Assembly (NCBI GenBank): GCA_943787465.1
Contig: CALSMN010000006.1
Coordinates: forward strand, 62,001-126,000
From: an uncultured Bacteroidia bacterium
GTDB taxonomy: Bacteria > Bacteroidota > Bacteroidia > NS11-12g > UBA9320
Reading direction: 5' to 3'
Length of the DNA: 64,000 nt
Both the position numbers and the translations under genes were made by a program. The notes beneath the pieces are model-generated. The model was not told the origin of the DNA, ran no database searches, and saw nothing but the letters and a program-made list of their open reading frames with translations. Shown here piece after piece: positions 31,534 to 39,886 of this stretch. Every line of letters starts with the position of its first letter. The stretch's first letter is position 1.

Positions 31534-34104
31534 ATGCTTAAAATATTTTCTCCTAAAAAAATTGTAATTGTCCTTTTATGCTCATTGCTTGTATTACTTT
31601 TTAAAGAAAGCTCAACCAATACAGGTGGTGCCCCTGGTGGGTACACCAATGCTCCAAATGAGGCCAATTGTACATCATGTCACGGGGGAACACTTCAAAC
31701 CAGCGGTACAAATTACAATAATATTAGCTTATCAAATAACCTCACTGGAGGTGGATATATCCCTGATAGTACCTATACATTTACGCTAAACTATACGCAT
31801 AGTGGCAAAAGTAAATTTGGCTATCAATTGACTTGTCTTGATAAATCAAATCAAATGGCTGGGAGCTTTAGTTTGCTGTCTGGCAATAATAAATCATCCA
31901 TTACTTCAACCAATATATCCGGAGCTACACGTAGTTACATGCGTCAAACAAGTGCTGGATCTTCTAGCTCAGGAGGTGCTTCATGGAGTTTTCAATGGAA
32001 AGCTCCAGCTTCTATTAAAGATACACTTACTTTTTATGTAGTTGTCAATGCGACAAACTCATCTTCTTCTAATACTGGTGACATCATTATAGCTAAGGAA
32101 TTTTTTATAATTCCATCATCATTACTTCCAGAAGCTAATGCATCGATCAATAATTCAAATGTTTGTCAAGCCAATAGTATACAATTACAAGGTTCAGGAA
32201 CAAACTCCCCGGTATCATATGCATGGAAGTTACCCAATGGTACTCCCTCTATTTCCAATGCTCAAAACCCTAATGTAGTTTACAATTTCCCAGGAAAATA
32301 TAATGCAATTCTTACTGTAACGAATGCAAAAGGAAAATCAAAACCGGATACTGTAACCATTAATGTTCTCAAATCTCCTGGTCCTTTTATCCCTAACGGA
32401 AATTCAAGAAAAATATGTCAGGGTGATTCTATTTTACTAAAATTAAACCCTGTAGAAACTGGGGTTTCTTATACCTGGAATACGGGTCAAAAAGGGGACT
32501 CTTTGTGGGTTTCTCAAAACGGACCCTATTATGTAACTGGACTAGGAAAAAATGGATGTTCAAGGAACAGTAACACCATACAAGTCAGTTTTTTTGATAA
32601 ACCCACATCTAATCTCAGAACTGAAATTCAATTATCGAATGATAGTATATGTCAAAACACGCTAGTCCGTTTGGTTTCAGATTCACTAAATAATGATAGT
32701 TTTTATTTTTACGCTTCAGGGTCATTAGTTCAAAGGACTACGGATGCATTCCATGATATTCTTGTCAACCAAACAACAACCTATGGCGTACAAGTGAGAG
32801 ATCAAAATTTGTGCTTAAGTGACACAGCATACTATACCCTATTTGCTCAAGAAAAAAGACCTGCGCCTAGGATATCCTGTTTCAATTCAACCGTTGATAG
32901 TATTATCTATACCTGGACCAATCCATCCATTCATAATGGATATCAAATCAGTATTAATCAGGGTAAAAGCTGGAGTACTTCAACCAGTGGTCTTAATGGC
33001 ACTCGCCATGAGATTGGTGGTCTCCAACCAGATGATTCCATAACGCTATGGGTCCGTGGTATCGATAACGGCCCATGTCTCTTCAGTTTGATTGGAACTA
33101 AAACATGCTATACCAAATCATGCTCACCACTTCAAGTTAATGTGAATGCAGATACATCTATCTGTGATGGTAACTTATGGCAGATTGAAATAAATGGGTT
33201 GTCCAATCAAAAATATAGCTTAACCATTGATAATGGAGATGCATTTACTGATACTTTATTTTCATTTAATCCAAAAGTTTCCAGAGATTACATCATAGAA
33301 ATTATAGACTCCAACCACCTTACTTGTCCTTCAAAAAAGATTGCACTTCCACTTCAAATTGACCAAAAACCAACGGCAACTTTAAGTCCTATAAAATCAA
33401 AAGCTTTTTGTGAGGGTGAGACCATTCAGTTTGAAGCAAATAATCTCATGGATAATTGGACTTTTGTTCTGAATACGATACCCGTTCAATCCGGTAATTC
33501 AAATAAGTACACCAACAATACACTTTCTGACGGTGACAGTCTGTATGTAATTGTGAATAAAGGAAAATGTAGAGACACTTCATCCATCGTTAGTGTGAAT
33601 ATTGAGTCTACTATTGATGCATCATTTGATTTTGTCCGTGAGCAATCCATATATACATTTACTCCATCCAATCTATTACACAGCAGTTATTCATGGAATT
33701 TTGGAGATGGTAGTGCTATTTCAAATGATGTAAGCCCAAGACACGATTTTATTACAAGTGAGGGAAAAGAGACATTTGTTCGCCTAGCTGTAGTCACGTC
33801 AAATGACTGCTTAGCAGATAGTGGACAACTTATACGATTGCCTCTATTTAGTCATGTAGACGAGCTTAAAAAAGATGGGATCGATGTTTTTCCTAATCCT
33901 ACTCAAAACTTATTAGTTATCAATCAGGAAATAGACACCGACTTAGTTGCAGAATTAAGAAGTATAGATGGAATACTCGTTCAACGAGTATTCATTAAAG
34001 ATGCCAATCATACCATTGATTTATCTCATTTAAAAACAGGTATATATACCCTAACCTTAATATCAAGGGATAAACAATGGAATACTCGAATATTCAGGAA
34101 TTAA
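31534..34104 (+). CDS. T9SS-sorted surface protein with CxxCH motif and PKD-type domains
   Basis: An 856-residue secreted protein. After an N-terminal membrane/signal segment comes a short NEANCTSCHGG motif (one CxxCH, a potential c-type haem site) and a beta domain of the choice-of-anchor V type. PKD-like domains follow (VSYAWKLPNGTPS...PGKYNAILTVTN at about 225-270; SSYSWNFGDGSAIS near 725). The end is a type A sorting domain (IDVFPNPTQNLLVI...LKTGIYTLTLISR). It should be exported by the type IX system and fixed to the surface. Haem attachment would have to occur in the periplasm before export. Confidence 0.87.
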   Translation: MLKIFSPKKIVIVLLCSLLVLLFKESSTNTGGAPGGYTNAPNEANCTSCHGGTLQTSGTNYNNISLSNNLTGGGYIPDSTYTFTLNYTHSGKSKFGYQLTCLDKSNQMAGSFSLLSGNNKSSITSTNISGATRSYMRQTSAGSSSSGGASWSFQWKAPASIKDTLTFYVVVNATNSSSSNTGDIIIAKEFFIIPSSLLPEANASINNSNVCQANSIQLQGSGTNSPVSYAWKLPNGTPSISNAQNPNVVYNFPGKYNAILTVTNAKGKSKPDTVTINVLKSPGPFIPNGNSRKICQGDSILLKLNPVETGVSYTWNTGQKGDSLWVSQNGPYYVTGLGKNGCSRNSNTIQVSFFDKPTSNLRTEIQLSNDSICQNTLVRLVSDSLNNDSFYFYASGSLVQRTTDAFHDILVNQTTTYGVQVRDQNLCLSDTAYYTLFAQEKRPAPRISCFNSTVDSIIYTWTNPSIHNGYQISINQGKSWSTSTSGLNGTRHEIGGLQPDDSITLWVRGIDNGPCLFSLIGTKTCYTKSCSPLQVNVNADTSICDGNLWQIEINGLSNQKYSLTIDNGDAFTDTLFSFNPKVSRDYIIEIIDSNHLTCPSKKIALPLQIDQKPTATLSPIKSKAFCEGETIQFEANNLMDNWTFVLNTIPVQSGNSNKYTNNTLSDGDSLYVIVNKGKCRDTSSIVSVNIESTIDASFDFVREQSIYTFTPSNLLHSSYSWNFGDGSAISNDVSPRHDFITSEGKETFVRLAVVTSNDCLADSGQLIRLPLFSHVDELKKDGIDVFPNPTQNLLVINQEIDTDLVAELRSIDGILVQRVFIKDANHTIDLSHLKTGIYTLTLISRDKQWNTRIFRN

Positions 34105-35948: not shown

Positions 35949-37043
35949 ATGGCTTTACAATGTGGAATAGTGGGCTTGCCCAATGTAGGAAAATCAACAC
36001 TTTTTAACTGTCTTAGTAATGCTAAAGCTGAAAGTGCAAACTATCCTTTTTGTACGATAGAACCCAACGTTGGAATGATTACCGTTCCAGATGAACGATT
36101 ATATCAAATATCTGATTTGGTAAACCCACAAAAAATAATTCCAACAACAGTGGAAATTGTAGATATCGCTGGATTAGTTAAGGGGGCTAGTAAAGGTGAA
36201 GGGTTAGGGAATCAATTCTTGGGAAATATTAAAAATACAAATGCTATACTACATGTAGTACGATGTTTTGATGATGATAATATTACCCATGTTGATGGAA
36301 GCATTAATCCAGTTAGAGATAAGGAAATTATTGACACTGAACTACAATTGAAAGATTTAGAAGCTGTGGATAATAAGATATTGAAAGTCAAAAAACTGGC
36401 AGAAACAGGAAATAAGGAAGCTAAATCTGTCCATGAAGTTCTTTCCAAAATAAAAGGTGTATTAGAACAAGGTAAATCTGCTAGAACCTTAGAACTTGAC
36501 GAAAATCAACGACAAATTATAAAAGATTTGAATTTACTCACACTTAAACCCGTTCTATACGTCTGTAATGTTGACGATACGAGTGTAGTTAGTGGCAATC
36601 ATCATACTCAAGCCTTTGTGGAGGCAATAAAAGAAGAAGGTGCTCAGGTCATGCTAGTTTCTGCTGAAATTGAAGCAGATATGGTGGACATGGAGGAGGA
36701 AGATAAAAAATTGTTTTTGGATGATATGGGACTTAAAGAAAGTGGAGTAAATCGAATAATTAAAGCTGCTTATCAACTTTTAAACTATCAAACATACTTT
36801 ACTGCTGGTGAAAAAGAAGTGAGGGCGTGGACCATTGAGGCAGGATATACAGCTCCACAAGCTGCTGGAACAATTCATACTGATTTTGAAAAAGGATTTA
36901 TTAGAGCAGAGGTAATTGCTTTTGAAGATTATTTAAAACTAGGATCTGAATCCAAATGTAGAGAAGCTGGGAAACTTAGAGTAGAAGGAAAAGAATATAT
37001 CGTTCAAGATGGAGATATCATGCACTTTAGGTTTAATGTGTAG
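35949..37043 (+). CDS. ychF: Redox-regulated ATPase / OBG-like GTPase YchF
   Basis: YchF is an Obg-family P-loop protein that binds ribosomes and hydrolyses ATP in preference to GTP. The G1 motif GLPNVGKST is at residues 7-15, G3 is DIAGLVKGASKGEGLGNQFL, and NVDD replaces the NKxD guanine-specificity motif, in line with ATP use. A coiled-coil insertion (about 120-200) and a C-terminal TGS domain complete the 364 residues, a typical length. It stands alone. Confidence 0.95.
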   Translation: MALQCGIVGLPNVGKSTLFNCLSNAKAESANYPFCTIEPNVGMITVPDERLYQISDLVNPQKIIPTTVEIVDIAGLVKGASKGEGLGNQFLGNIKNTNAILHVVRCFDDDNITHVDGSINPVRDKEIIDTELQLKDLEAVDNKILKVKKLAETGNKEAKSVHEVLSKIKGVLEQGKSARTLELDENQRQIIKDLNLLTLKPVLYVCNVDDTSVVSGNHHTQAFVEAIKEEGAQVMLVSAEIEADMVDMEEEDKKLFLDDMGLKESGVNRIIKAAYQLLNYQTYFTAGEKEVRAWTIEAGYTAPQAAGTIHTDFEKGFIRAEVIAFEDYLKLGSESKCREAGKLRVEGKEYIVQDGDIMHFRFNV

Positions 37044-37052
37044 ATTATTTAT

Positions 37053-37060
37053 TATCTTTG
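37053..37060 (+). promoter_or_regulatory. -7 box TATCTTTG for the Cys-rich lipoprotein
   Basis: Perfect TAnnTTTG, 21 bases before ATG 37082. It overlaps the upstream alternative start at 37058, which is therefore unlikely. Confidence 0.5.
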
Positions 37061-37081: not shown

Positions 37082-37399
37082 ATGAAAAATTCATTTAAAC
37101 TATTTAGCCTTATTTTTTTTATCAGTATAGCTTCCGTTTCTTGTCAAGGTAACAAAGAATGTACTGAAAATTGCAAGAAAGAATGCTGTACAAAAAAGGA
37201 TACCTCAAAATGCAAGCCTGATTGTGAAAAACCTTGTTGCAAAAAAGAGGAAAAGACATGCAAAGCTGATTGTGAAAAACCTTGTTGTAAAACAAAAGAT
37301 TCAGAAAAAAAGGACAGCACTACGAATGTTAATCCAGACCATGTATGTACAGAATCTTGCACTACTAATCCTGATGCTTGCCCTCATCACTCAAAATAA
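37082..37399 (+). CDS. Cysteine-repeat lipoprotein
   Basis: A 105-residue lipoprotein: signal MKNSFKLFSLIFFISIASVSC with the lipidated Cys at 21. The mature part has 15 further cysteines, arranged as three C-x3-C-x3-CC units (CTENCKKECC, CKPDCEKPCC, CKADCEKPCC) separated by Lys-rich spacers, then CTESCTTNPDAC and a PHHSK end. This suggests metal binding, such as copper or zinc, at the cell envelope, or many disulphides. I do not recognise a named family. The two better repeats are also alike in DNA (37211-37306), so recent duplication is likely. Confidence 0.75.
   Translation: MKNSFKLFSLIFFISIASVSCQGNKECTENCKKECCTKKDTSKCKPDCEKPCCKKEEKTCKADCEKPCCKTKDSEKKDSTTNVNPDHVCTESCTTNPDACPHHSK
37211..37306 (+). 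repeat. 48-bp tandem repeat inside the Cys-rich lipoprotein gene
   Basis: Two adjacent 48-base units begin at 37211 and 37259. Their first 30 or so bases are nearly identical and encode CKPDCEKPCC and CKADCEKPCC. A more diverged unit precedes them at about 37160. Confidence 0.7.
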
Positions 37400-37541: not shown

Positions 37542-38300
37542 TTAATTAGTATCCGATTCGTTTAAATCTTTAATCTTTAAACTTCTTATAAAAACTGACA
37601 TACTTGAGAGTATACATATAATAAATCCTGTGATACCGTCAAGAAAACCAAGTTTCAGAAAATAATCTCTAAAGAATCTGAATATCGGCTTGAAAACAAA
37701 ATGATAAAAATTCACACTTTCTCCTTTTGAAAATCTTTCGTTGGCACCCCATGTAGTATATCTATCCCATTTTTCAAGATAATGTTTTATATCCTTGAAA
37801 GTATAGTGTATTAACTTTTCATTTAAGACACCAATTTCACCATCACAAATCATTTCAGCGTGGACGTTTTTGTCCTCGTATACACATTTATCCTTTCTAA
37901 ATAATCGAATAACCTTATCCCCTTGCCAACCCGAAAATCGGATTTTCTTTCCCATAAAATAGTTTTGTCGTTTAATCCAAAAAGCACAATATGTTGGATC
38001 CTGATCAAGAACATTAATCATTTCCATTTTTAAGTCCGCTGTAATTCTTTCATCTGCATCAATCAAAATCACCCAATCATGTGAAGCTTGAGGTATGGCC
38101 CAATTTTTTTGAGAGGCCGAATATTCATAATTCCTTTGAATAACTTTTACACCTTTACTTTTAGCAATTTCTACTGTTGAATCTGTGCTAAATGAATCAA
38201 CAACAATAATTTCATTTGCCCAAGATACTGATTCTATAGCATCAGCAATATTATGCTCTTCATTAAATGTTGGTATCAATGCTGTTATATTATAACTCAT
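37542..38300 (-). CDS. Family 2 glycosyltransferase (WaaE-like)
   Basis: A 252-residue GT-A-fold glycosyltransferase: ALIPTFNEEHNIADAIESV at the N-terminus, ILIDADERI as the DxD-type metal motif, and a hydrophobic segment near the C-terminus. It matches the WaaE/KdtX-like subgroup that adds sugars to lipopolysaccharide core; the donor and acceptor are unknown. ATG 38300 is used; the frame runs open to 38501, but that part overlaps the divergent gene and lies beyond the -7 box at 38318. Confidence 0.87.
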   Translation of the reverse strand: MSYNITALIPTFNEEHNIADAIESVSWANEIIVVDSFSTDSTVEIAKSKGVKVIQRNYEYSASQKNWAIPQASHDWVILIDADERITADLKMEMINVLDQDPTYCAFWIKRQNYFMGKKIRFSGWQGDKVIRLFRKDKCVYEDKNVHAEMICDGEIGVLNEKLIHYTFKDIKHYLEKWDRYTTWGANERFSKGESVNFYHFVFKPIFRFFRDYFLKLGFLDGITGFIICILSSMSVFIRSLKIKDLNESDTN

Positions 38301-38317
38301 TAAAATAGATAGTATGT

Positions 38318-38325
38318 CAAAGGTA
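38318..38325 (-). promoter_or_regulatory. -7 box TACCTTTG for the WaaE-like gene
   Basis: Perfect TAnnTTTG on the minus strand, 17 bases before ATG 38300. The opposing box at 38335 is 9 bases away. Confidence 0.55.
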
Positions 38326-38334
38326 TCATTTTTA

Positions 38335-38342
38335 TACTTTTG
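38335..38342 (+). promoter_or_regulatory. -7 box TACTTTTG for the second glycosyltransferase
   Basis: Perfect TAnnTTTG, 25 bases before ATG 38368. Confidence 0.5.
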
Positions 38343-38367
38343 CCTATAATATTTAAAATAGGGTCCA

Positions 38368-39345
38368 ATGAAAATAAGCGGATTTACCTTCATTAAAAAT
38401 GCCGAAAAGCTATATATTCCTGCAAAAGAGTCTATACTTTCTATCTTACCTATATGTGATGAATTTATCATTGCAATAGGTGATAATGATATCGGTGACA
38501 ATACCCTAAAAATTATTCAATCTATCCAATCAGAAAAAATTAAAATCATTCATACTAAATGGAACACCAAGGACTACCCTAAAAACACCATATTTGCGCA
38601 TCAAACTGATATTGCAAAACAACATTGTAAAGGAGACTGGTTATTCTATCTTCAGTGTGATGAAGCTATTCACCAAAATGACTTGGAAACTATAAAGAAA
38701 GCATGTGATGATCACCTTGATGATAAAAGTGTAGATGGTTTTTTATTCCATTATTTACATTTTTGGGGGGACTACAATCATTTTCACAACAGCCATTCAT
38801 GGTACAAAAAAGAAATCAGGATTATTAGAAACTTACCTTCCATTCATTCATGGAAAGATGCTCAATCGTTCAGAAAATTTACAAAATGGGAAGGTGGAAC
38901 ATTCAACGACTACACAACCAAGAAATACAATGCTAAATTAAATGTTATTGAGCTAAACGTTCATGTTTTTCATTATGGTTACGTAAGACCACCTAAGTTG
39001 ATGTCTACAAAGAGAAAATCAAGCTCAACTTCCTATCACGGAAAAAGTGCAAAAAAAATCATATCTCAAATTGCTCAAGAATATGACTACGGACCTTTAA
39101 ATAAACTAAAAAAGTACCAAGGAACACATCCATCTGTTATGAAAGAATGGATAAGCAAATTCAATTGGTCGTCACAGTTACAATATACGGGAAACAGAAA
39201 TAAAAAAAGAAACCCTCATAAACACGAAAAATTCAAATACCGATTGCTTTCCTTTATAGAGAATACATTTCTGAATGGAGAGGTAATAGGGGGATTTAAG
39301 AATTACACCATTATAGAGAAATCGGAAATCAGAGAGGAAAAGTGA
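38368..39345 (+). CDS. Glycosyltransferase family 2-like protein
   Basis: A 325-residue cytoplasmic protein with a GT-A start (ISGFTFIKNAEKLYIPAKESI), CDEFIIAIGDNDIGDNT and LFYLQCDEAIHQND, the place of a DxD motif (here QCDEA). The rest is rich in His, Tyr and Lys (HYLHFWGDYNHFHNSHSWYKKEIRIIR). It is divergent from another glycosyltransferase, so the two may act on the same polysaccharide or lipid-linked glycan. The donor sugar is unknown. Confidence 0.75.
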   Translation: MKISGFTFIKNAEKLYIPAKESILSILPICDEFIIAIGDNDIGDNTLKIIQSIQSEKIKIIHTKWNTKDYPKNTIFAHQTDIAKQHCKGDWLFYLQCDEAIHQNDLETIKKACDDHLDDKSVDGFLFHYLHFWGDYNHFHNSHSWYKKEIRIIRNLPSIHSWKDAQSFRKFTKWEGGTFNDYTTKKYNAKLNVIELNVHVFHYGYVRPPKLMSTKRKSSSTSYHGKSAKKIISQIAQEYDYGPLNKLKKYQGTHPSVMKEWISKFNWSSQLQYTGNRNKKRNPHKHEKFKYRLLSFIENTFLNGEVIGGFKNYTIIEKSEIREEK

Positions 39346-39367: not shown

Positions 39368-39886
39368 TCATTCTGCTAATTCTGAAACTAATTTTGAAAT
39401 ATGATCCTCTAAATCATACTCATCCCCTTCCACATAGCCAGTGTGGGTATATACAATTTTACCTGATTGATCTACTAAAAAAGTGACTGGAGGGTTGGCT
39501 ACATTCATCGCTCTCTGGACTTCCCCATTAGGATCTAAAAGAACATCAAAATCCCAATTTAGTGCATTGGCTGTAGGCTTGACTTTTCCCGCATTCCTCG
39601 AATCATCAACGCTAATAGCAACTAACTCTAAATCATATGCATCCATCCAATCATCCAATAAACTATTTATATTTTTAAGCTCTTTTATGCATGGTTTACA
39701 CCATGTAGCCCAAAAGGAAACAATAGTTATCTTATCATTTCTGCCATAATCAGCAAGATTAACATCTTTACCTTCTGTATTCTTCATAGATATTTCGGGT
39801 AGTGAGGATAAGCTAGAAACATCTTCTTGAGCATTTACAATGAATCCTGTGAAAATAAGTAGTAAAATGGATATATATTTTTTCAT
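39368..39886 (-). CDS. TlpA-like thioredoxin-fold protein
   Basis: A 172-residue exported protein: signal MKKYISILLLIFTGFIVNAQ, then a thioredoxin fold with the active site WATWCKPC (C63, C66). VAISVDDSRN and NPPVTFLVDQSGKIVYTHTGY (cis-Pro loop) are typical of the TlpA/ResA group, which reduces disulphides in the periplasm, for instance in apocytochromes. The substrate is unknown; the c-type cytochromes in this window are possible clients by inference. Confidence 0.92.
   Translation of the reverse strand: MKKYISILLLIFTGFIVNAQEDVSSLSSLPEISMKNTEGKDVNLADYGRNDKITIVSFWATWCKPCIKELKNINSLLDDWMDAYDLELVAISVDDSRNAGKVKPTANALNWDFDVLLDPNGEVQRAMNVANPPVTFLVDQSGKIVYTHTGYVEGDEYDLEDHISKLVSELAE

Follow-up and report, generated by a model that had tools for sequence, protein, structure and literature searches.

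We identified a small cysteine-rich lipoprotein encoded in the window, a 64,000-nucleotide stretch of a contig from an uncultured Bacteroidia bacterium. The observation is real: the protein belongs to an inherited family, seen as such so far in one family of Bacteroidia. From its sequence we lean, by a little, towards reading it as an exported, lipid-anchored, metallothionein-like metal-thiolate buffer. The gene and its parts are as follows.

37082–37399, + strand: open reading frame of the Cys-repeat lipoprotein, 105 aa
37082–37144, + strand: predicted lipoprotein signal peptide and lipobox SVSC, with Cys21 as the predicted +1 residue (by eye)
37160–37189, + strand: unit 1, CTENCKKECC
37211–37240, + strand: unit 2, CKPDCEKPCC
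37259–37288, + strand: unit 3, CKADCEKPCC, 48 nt after unit 2 and 90% identical to it over 30 nt
37340–37390, + strand: C-terminal module HVC-x3-C-x6-CPHH, residues 87–103

The protein contains 16 cysteines in 105 residues, all 16 within the 85 mature residues, and includes three exact C-x3-C-x3-CC units that start at residues 27, 44 and 60. An earlier note on this DNA had claimed 16 cysteines in three repeats, and the translation of the reading frame and the unit positions bear this out. After the predicted lipid-bearing cysteine the mature chain has 84 residues, among them 18 lysines, 16 acidic residues and 15 cysteines, and the mature protein lacks F, W, Y, I, L, M and R altogether. Cysteine makes up 0.94% of the 46 ATG-started reading frames of at least 200 aa in the window, and at this baseline the chance of at least 15 cysteines in 84 residues is ~3e-15; indeed, the lipoprotein has the highest cysteine content of all ATG-started reading frames of at least 80 aa in the window. 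By eye, its N-terminus has no arginine and thus no Tat signal.

Structure prediction yielded no confident fold, with a mean pLDDT of 57 when only the window sequence was used and 43 when eight sequences were supplied, and the models are too weak to define a binding site. The window protein matched no Pfam family at E ≤ 1, its only two NCBIfam matches (E 0.51 and 0.74) were to other lipoprotein or membrane families, and no PDB sequence matched the family profile at E ≤ 1. The best Pfam matches of any family member were DUF4969 (3 of 17 sequences, best E 0.0011) and TIL (2 of 17, best E 0.004). Judged from titles and the start of abstracts, the open-licence PubMed Central literature holds no paper on this lipoprotein family.

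Three units arose in only 5 of 200,000 composition-preserving shuffles of the window protein, a figure that overstates independence because units 2 and 3 look like duplicates. These two lie within a direct repeat of 42 nt (37210–37251 and 37258–37299) with 86% identity and a spacing of 48, just as the earlier note had described two repeats near-identical in DNA with a 48-base period; Tandem Repeats Finder at a minimum score of 30 did not report this repeat. Across the 17 aligned family sequences, the window protein included, the cysteine count ranges from 7 to 20 and the number of exact units from 0 to 3. The suggestion that repeat number may vary between strains therefore holds in the form of variation between species. 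Conservation of the cysteine spacing, which had been proposed as a check, is only partial: 12 of the 17 sequences keep at least one exact unit and cysteine is the most conserved residue, but 5 of 17 keep none. In one relative (L008) a pair of adjacent units reaches 93% DNA identity, compared with 83% for the best match elsewhere. Neighbouring units that are closer to each other than to other genes suggest that units turn over, as after recent duplication. The duplication of window units 2 and 3 is not clearly recent, because unit 2 matches the last unit of L002 at 93% identity, above the 90% it shares with unit 3.

The protein also carries near its C-terminus a second kind of motif, distinct from the C-x3-C-x3-CC units, which the earlier note had passed over. 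Its sequence is HVCTESCTTNPDACPHH and its general pattern H-x-C-x3-C-x6-C-P-x-H. In window numbering, H87, C89, C93, C100, P101 and H103 are invariant in all eight module-bearing genus members, which were chosen for carrying the module, and the module's conserved columns are also found in a set of seven sequences. The module is absent from 5 of the 13 genus sequences in the alignment and from 5 of all 17, and has apparently been lost in the sister clade of the window species. In some relatives, such as L003 (9 His) and L046, His-rich ends accompany the cysteines.

In its own genome (G000; 1.97 Mb, 10 contigs) the window protein as single query found one place; a second, weak place on contig C5 (E 6.5e-5) was dropped because L081, the locus there, has no Cys-rich reading frame. 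The same search detected the family in 13 of the 18 further genus genomes scanned, which makes 14 of 19 with its own. A match in G012 (E 0.22) was left out of these counts since it is a different protein, in L018, as were a profile match in G006 (E 7.9e-4), where L047 has no Cys-rich reading frame, and L064, whose match spans only query residues 1–26. The copy in G008 (L009, 1501–1803) is frame-broken, which could be due to a frame shift or a draft-assembly error. With a profile, the family was present in all five genomes of a second genus (g3), and a related Cys/His-rich protein was found in G023 of a third genus (g6; E 2.4e-5, locus L046). The alignment of 17 sequences, 13 of them from the genus, excludes the frame-broken L009 as well as L045 and L046. 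By eye, L057–L063 encode the same proteins as L004, L008, L007, L003, L012, L013 and L014, respectively, and so are not independent of these seven loci.

Beyond these genera the picture depends on the sample. In a draw of 395 genomes from the class, 19 passed E 1e-4, 16 of them outside the order, where 12 passed E 1e-5; 11 of the 16 out-of-order loci contain an ATG-started reading frame of at least 60 aa with at least 6 cysteines and more than 7% cysteine. In a draw of 395 genomes from the phylum, only the protein's own genome passed E 1e-5. The two draws disagree, which indicates that such draws are thin. A single-protein scan of a genome-contig collection found no relative, and a plasmid collection held no match to the window lipoprotein. 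The earlier note had called the arrangement rare for a surface lipoprotein. Rarity is true of the lipoprotein family within the genomes sampled, although other Bacteroidota repeatedly have small exported proteins rich in Cys and Lys. One genus (g65, family f43) has a recurrent small exported Lys/Cys-rich protein with KECC and CAGEKKE motifs (L065, L067, L068, L069, L072 and L078). Another family of the class has an exported protein without a clear lipobox (L073, 1495–1866) that contains CAPGCEKPCC and CKPGCEKKC and ends in a His-rich tail; by eye, its reading frame is followed by one for an MgtE-like magnesium transporter, and its likeness to the window protein could be convergence or distant kinship.

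Pairwise identity within the family under neutral scoring, taken from the 86 of 136 pairs that are 40–90% identical, was 0.79 for Cys, 0.66 for Lys, 0.63 for His, 0.54 for Glu and at most 0.46 for all other residues. All 17 sequences lack arginine and have at most one aromatic residue, and Cys21 is an invariant column. Comparisons among L012–L014 gave pN/pS values of ~0.22, 0.60 and 0.87 on few changes, indicating modest overall constraint, and revealed no difference in any Cys codon.

In the window the gene has the following neighbours.

35949–37043, + strand: ychF GTPase, the syntenic upstream neighbour
37542–38501, − strand: family 2 glycosyltransferase, the downstream neighbour (Pfam)
39368–39886, − strand: exported thioredoxin/TlpA-like protein outside the lipoprotein family, ~2 kb downstream (Pfam AhpC-TSA/Redoxin)

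In all genus loci of sufficient length, ychF precedes the lipoprotein gene. A further small lipoprotein gene intervenes in L007 and L008, and in L003 and L004 the two genes are 613 and 210 nt apart without a 70-aa reading frame on that strand. The intervening lipoprotein of ~175 aa is seen in several relatives (L059, 2053–2586; L058, 2433–2957; L046, 1778–2311), and the L059 protein has no Pfam match at E 0.01. A glycosyltransferase-like reading frame follows on the same strand in most relatives and on the opposite strand in the window (by eye, with Pfam matches in the window and in L060). By eye, each of the eight genus loci that extend so far downstream has a TlpA-like reading frame (L003, L006, L007, L009, L010 and L012–L014). 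The g3 neighbours differ and are CinA-like, a 127-aa protein and MurB-like, with a glycosyltransferase-like reading frame again following, and L046 adjoins a small lipoprotein reading frame and the end of ychF (both by eye). No metal gene adjoins the lipoprotein gene, the neighbours being ychF, glycosyltransferases and the TlpA-like protein. Elsewhere in the window, 31534–34104 encodes a large secreted protein whose end resembles, by eye, a type IX secretion sorting domain.

In two genomes, G006 and G009, the glycosyltransferase comes after ychF with no lipoprotein gene between them, and G009 has an unrelated 103-aa reading frame there. Because of its absence from this junction and the broken frame in L009, the lipoprotein gene is dispensable in some relatives. 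The gene was not found in G005, G012 and G016 either, but ychF was also not recovered in these three, so a copy may have been missed. A tree built from 18 YchF proteins places the window species with a five-member group whose lipoproteins lack the module; this placement has support 93/92 and the five-member group 92/86. G006 and G009 pair with each other (98/96). With these groupings, one module loss and one gene loss suffice within the genus, on a tree in which the strong threshold is reached by just 4 of the 15 inner branches and from which L002, also module-less, is missing.

Two possible expression signals flank the window gene.

37053–37060, + strand: possible −7 promoter element TATCTTTG, which fits TAnnTTTG, 29 nt before the start codon
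37419–37450, no strand assigned: perfect 15-bp inverted repeat, a possible terminator, starting 20 nt after the stop codon

The consensus of the −7 element is TAnnTTTG. The slightly looser TAnnTT(T/C)G occurs at most 45 nt upstream of 10 of the 17 family genes, that of the window included, with single-gene shuffle probabilities of 0.011–0.123 that are weak alone. The genes without it are L003, L004, L007, L008 and L012–L014, which lie farther from ychF or have another gene in between. A scan for sigma-70-type promoters found nothing above chance at the window gene. The inverted-repeat stretch folds at −24 kcal/mol (z −5.25); a simple terminator scan listed none at the window gene, and relatives within the genus showed no such 15-bp inverted repeat. 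The window gene probably forms a transcription unit of its own.

What might so many exported thiols do? The cysteines could join copies of the lipoprotein to each other or to other envelope proteins by disulfides and so stiffen the outer membrane, as proposed by analogy with OmcA of the Chlamydiaceae, a protein of similar size and composition (excerpt of PMC1403754). We consider this unlikely. The DsbB and VKOR families were not found in any of 38 family genomes (22 at least 90% complete; controls positive in 6 of 14 and 3 of 14), which would favour free thiols and tilts against wholesale disulfides, though other oxidants may exist. Indeed, Flavobacterium johnsoniae forms inter-protein disulfides at its outer membrane, SprF–GldK and PorG–GldK (excerpt of PMC12635249), which keeps wholesale disulfides in play. 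Cross-linking would also leave the His modules and His-rich ends with no obvious role, and sits poorly with a cysteine count as low as 7 in some relatives. It is likewise improbable that the protein is an envelope thiol buffer against redox stress or electrophiles, reduced by the nearby TlpA-like thioredoxin, with metal binding incidental. The TlpA-like gene does lie close by in the window and in the eight genus loci named above, but such a reading frame is also found beside the junction in G006 (L082), which lacks the lipoprotein at that place, and none is seen in the ~3-kb g3 loci L015, L027–L029 and L045. Furthermore, a redox sponge would have no need of the His and Pro residues that never vary in the C-terminal module.

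A role in metal acquisition, in which the lipoprotein would capture a scarce metal and hand it to an importer or metalloenzyme, seems quite unlikely to us: the named relatives seem to come from water, where metals can be scarce (habitat inferred from isolate names), and the Cys3-His module could serve as a hand-over site, but no importer or receptor gene adjoins the lipoprotein gene. We also considered a precursor of an MNIO-modified peptide, that is a bufferin, oxazolin or DAG-RiPP, since such peptides are exported, partly lipidated and Cys-containing, and several bind copper (excerpts of PMC12636315 and PMC12452194). The MNIO family PF05114 was not found in any of the 38 family genomes, the protein's own included (control positive in 2 of 14), and we rejected this copper-RiPP reading as highly implausible. 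By eye, the EGKCG and CPxCGxG core motifs are absent from the window protein; the looser CxxxxC is uninformative because C-x3-CC trivially implies it.

Taken together, the composition, the conserved cysteines, the Cys3-His module, the His-rich ends, the failure to find MNIO, DsbB and VKOR families and the lack of a confident fold make a metallothionein-like buffer the best reading. The protein would be exported by Sec and lipidated at Cys21, and its chain would hang from the outer membrane into the periplasm, unstructured until the thiolates and the C-terminal histidines bind soft or borderline metals such as Cu(I), Zn(II) and Cd(II). The low pLDDT is compatible with, and not proof of, a chain that folds on metal. 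Such binding would buffer metal ions in the envelope, and lineages could alter the binding capacity through gain and loss of units. Several points speak against the buffer reading: no metal gene lies next to the lipoprotein gene, the species has metal-efflux genes elsewhere, some relatives do without the gene, 5 of 17 sequences have no exact unit and 5 no C-terminal module, constraint among L012–L014 is modest, and the reading does not account for the linkage to glycosyltransferases. The earlier note had placed the lipoprotein on the surface, which was not borne out: residues +2 to +6 are QGNKE and fit neither K-(D/E)2 nor Q-A-(D/E)2, the minimal surface-export signals of Bacteroidota, which differ between genera and so are not decisive here (excerpt of PMC5080379). 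Because a published surface-export signal is absent, a periplasmic orientation is somewhat likelier on sequence grounds.

The window species itself need not depend on the lipoprotein, because it has a heavy-metal ATPase and CusA/CusB-like genes on another contig. This unlinked metal-efflux region (L100; G000, contig C4, 4000–23999) encodes, by eye, a CopA-like ATPase, CusA/CusB-like proteins and heavy-metal-associated domain proteins; it adjoins recombinase and integrase-like reading frames, and a second ATPase there is split over frames. Across the genus, a TIGR01525 match (E 0.001) was found in 7 of 14 lipoprotein-bearing genomes and 0 of 5 lacking it (Fisher p 0.11; many genomes incomplete), and scored above the curated cut-off in G000 and G013 only. 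In the near-complete relatives G003, G004 and G011 no heavy-metal P-type ATPase was found, and there the lipoprotein could therefore be a main defence. We hypothesize, tentatively and as the less probable outcome, that the family may be an outer-membrane-tethered, unmodified metallothionein built of interchangeable modules (C-x3-C-x3-CC units and Cys3-His) whose capacity is adjusted as units are gained or lost, and which would buffer metal in the envelope of Bacteroidota that have small genomes and are probably aquatic.

Several known systems resemble the window protein in part. Bacterial metallothioneins (SmtA/BmtA, MymT), which an excerpt of PMC7558416 reviews within the cytosolic copper pool, are likewise small, Cys-rich and aromatic-poor, and metal-thiolate clusters are proposed for both; unlike these cytosolic proteins, the window protein carries a lipoprotein signal (by eye) and repeats rich in Lys and Glu, and no Pfam family matches it at E ≤ 1. 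Csp1 copper storage proteins are also exported with many cysteines, but have a Tat signal where the window protein has a lipobox; they form a rigid four-helix bundle (same excerpt), and the window protein, with no confident fold predicted, gave models too weak to compare with that bundle. Bufferins, oxazolins and DAG-RiPPs share export, lipidation in some cases and Cys-based chemistry, several of them binding copper according to the excerpts cited above, but require the MNIO enzyme that was not found in the family genomes. OmcA, described in the excerpt of PMC1403754 as an SPII lipoprotein of 88 aa with 15% Cys that is cross-linked with OmcB and MOMP, is a small lipoprotein of nearly the same cysteine content (16 of 105 in the window protein; lipobox by eye); it is co-transcribed with OmcB, a large Cys-rich protein, and disulfide cross-linked, whereas the window gene has ychF and glycosyltransferases as neighbours. 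Within Bacteroidota, L065–L069, L071–L073, L075, L076 and L078 resemble the window protein in their signal peptide (by eye) and Lys/Cys-rich style, but have weaker scores (E 2.5e-8 to 1.7e-5), other neighbours and mostly no lipobox (by eye), a likeness of style rather than established descent. If the mechanism holds, the lipoprotein may be a Cys-rich metal buffer outside the families of Pfam and NCBIfam. Csp1 and enzyme-modified RiPPs already provide examples of metal buffering in the envelope (excerpts of PMC7558416, PMC12636315 and PMC12452194); a plain thiolate sponge held by a lipid anchor and built of units that can be counted would, if real, be a further route to it and a starting point for understanding a set of Cys-rich exported proteins of Bacteroidota that lack annotation.
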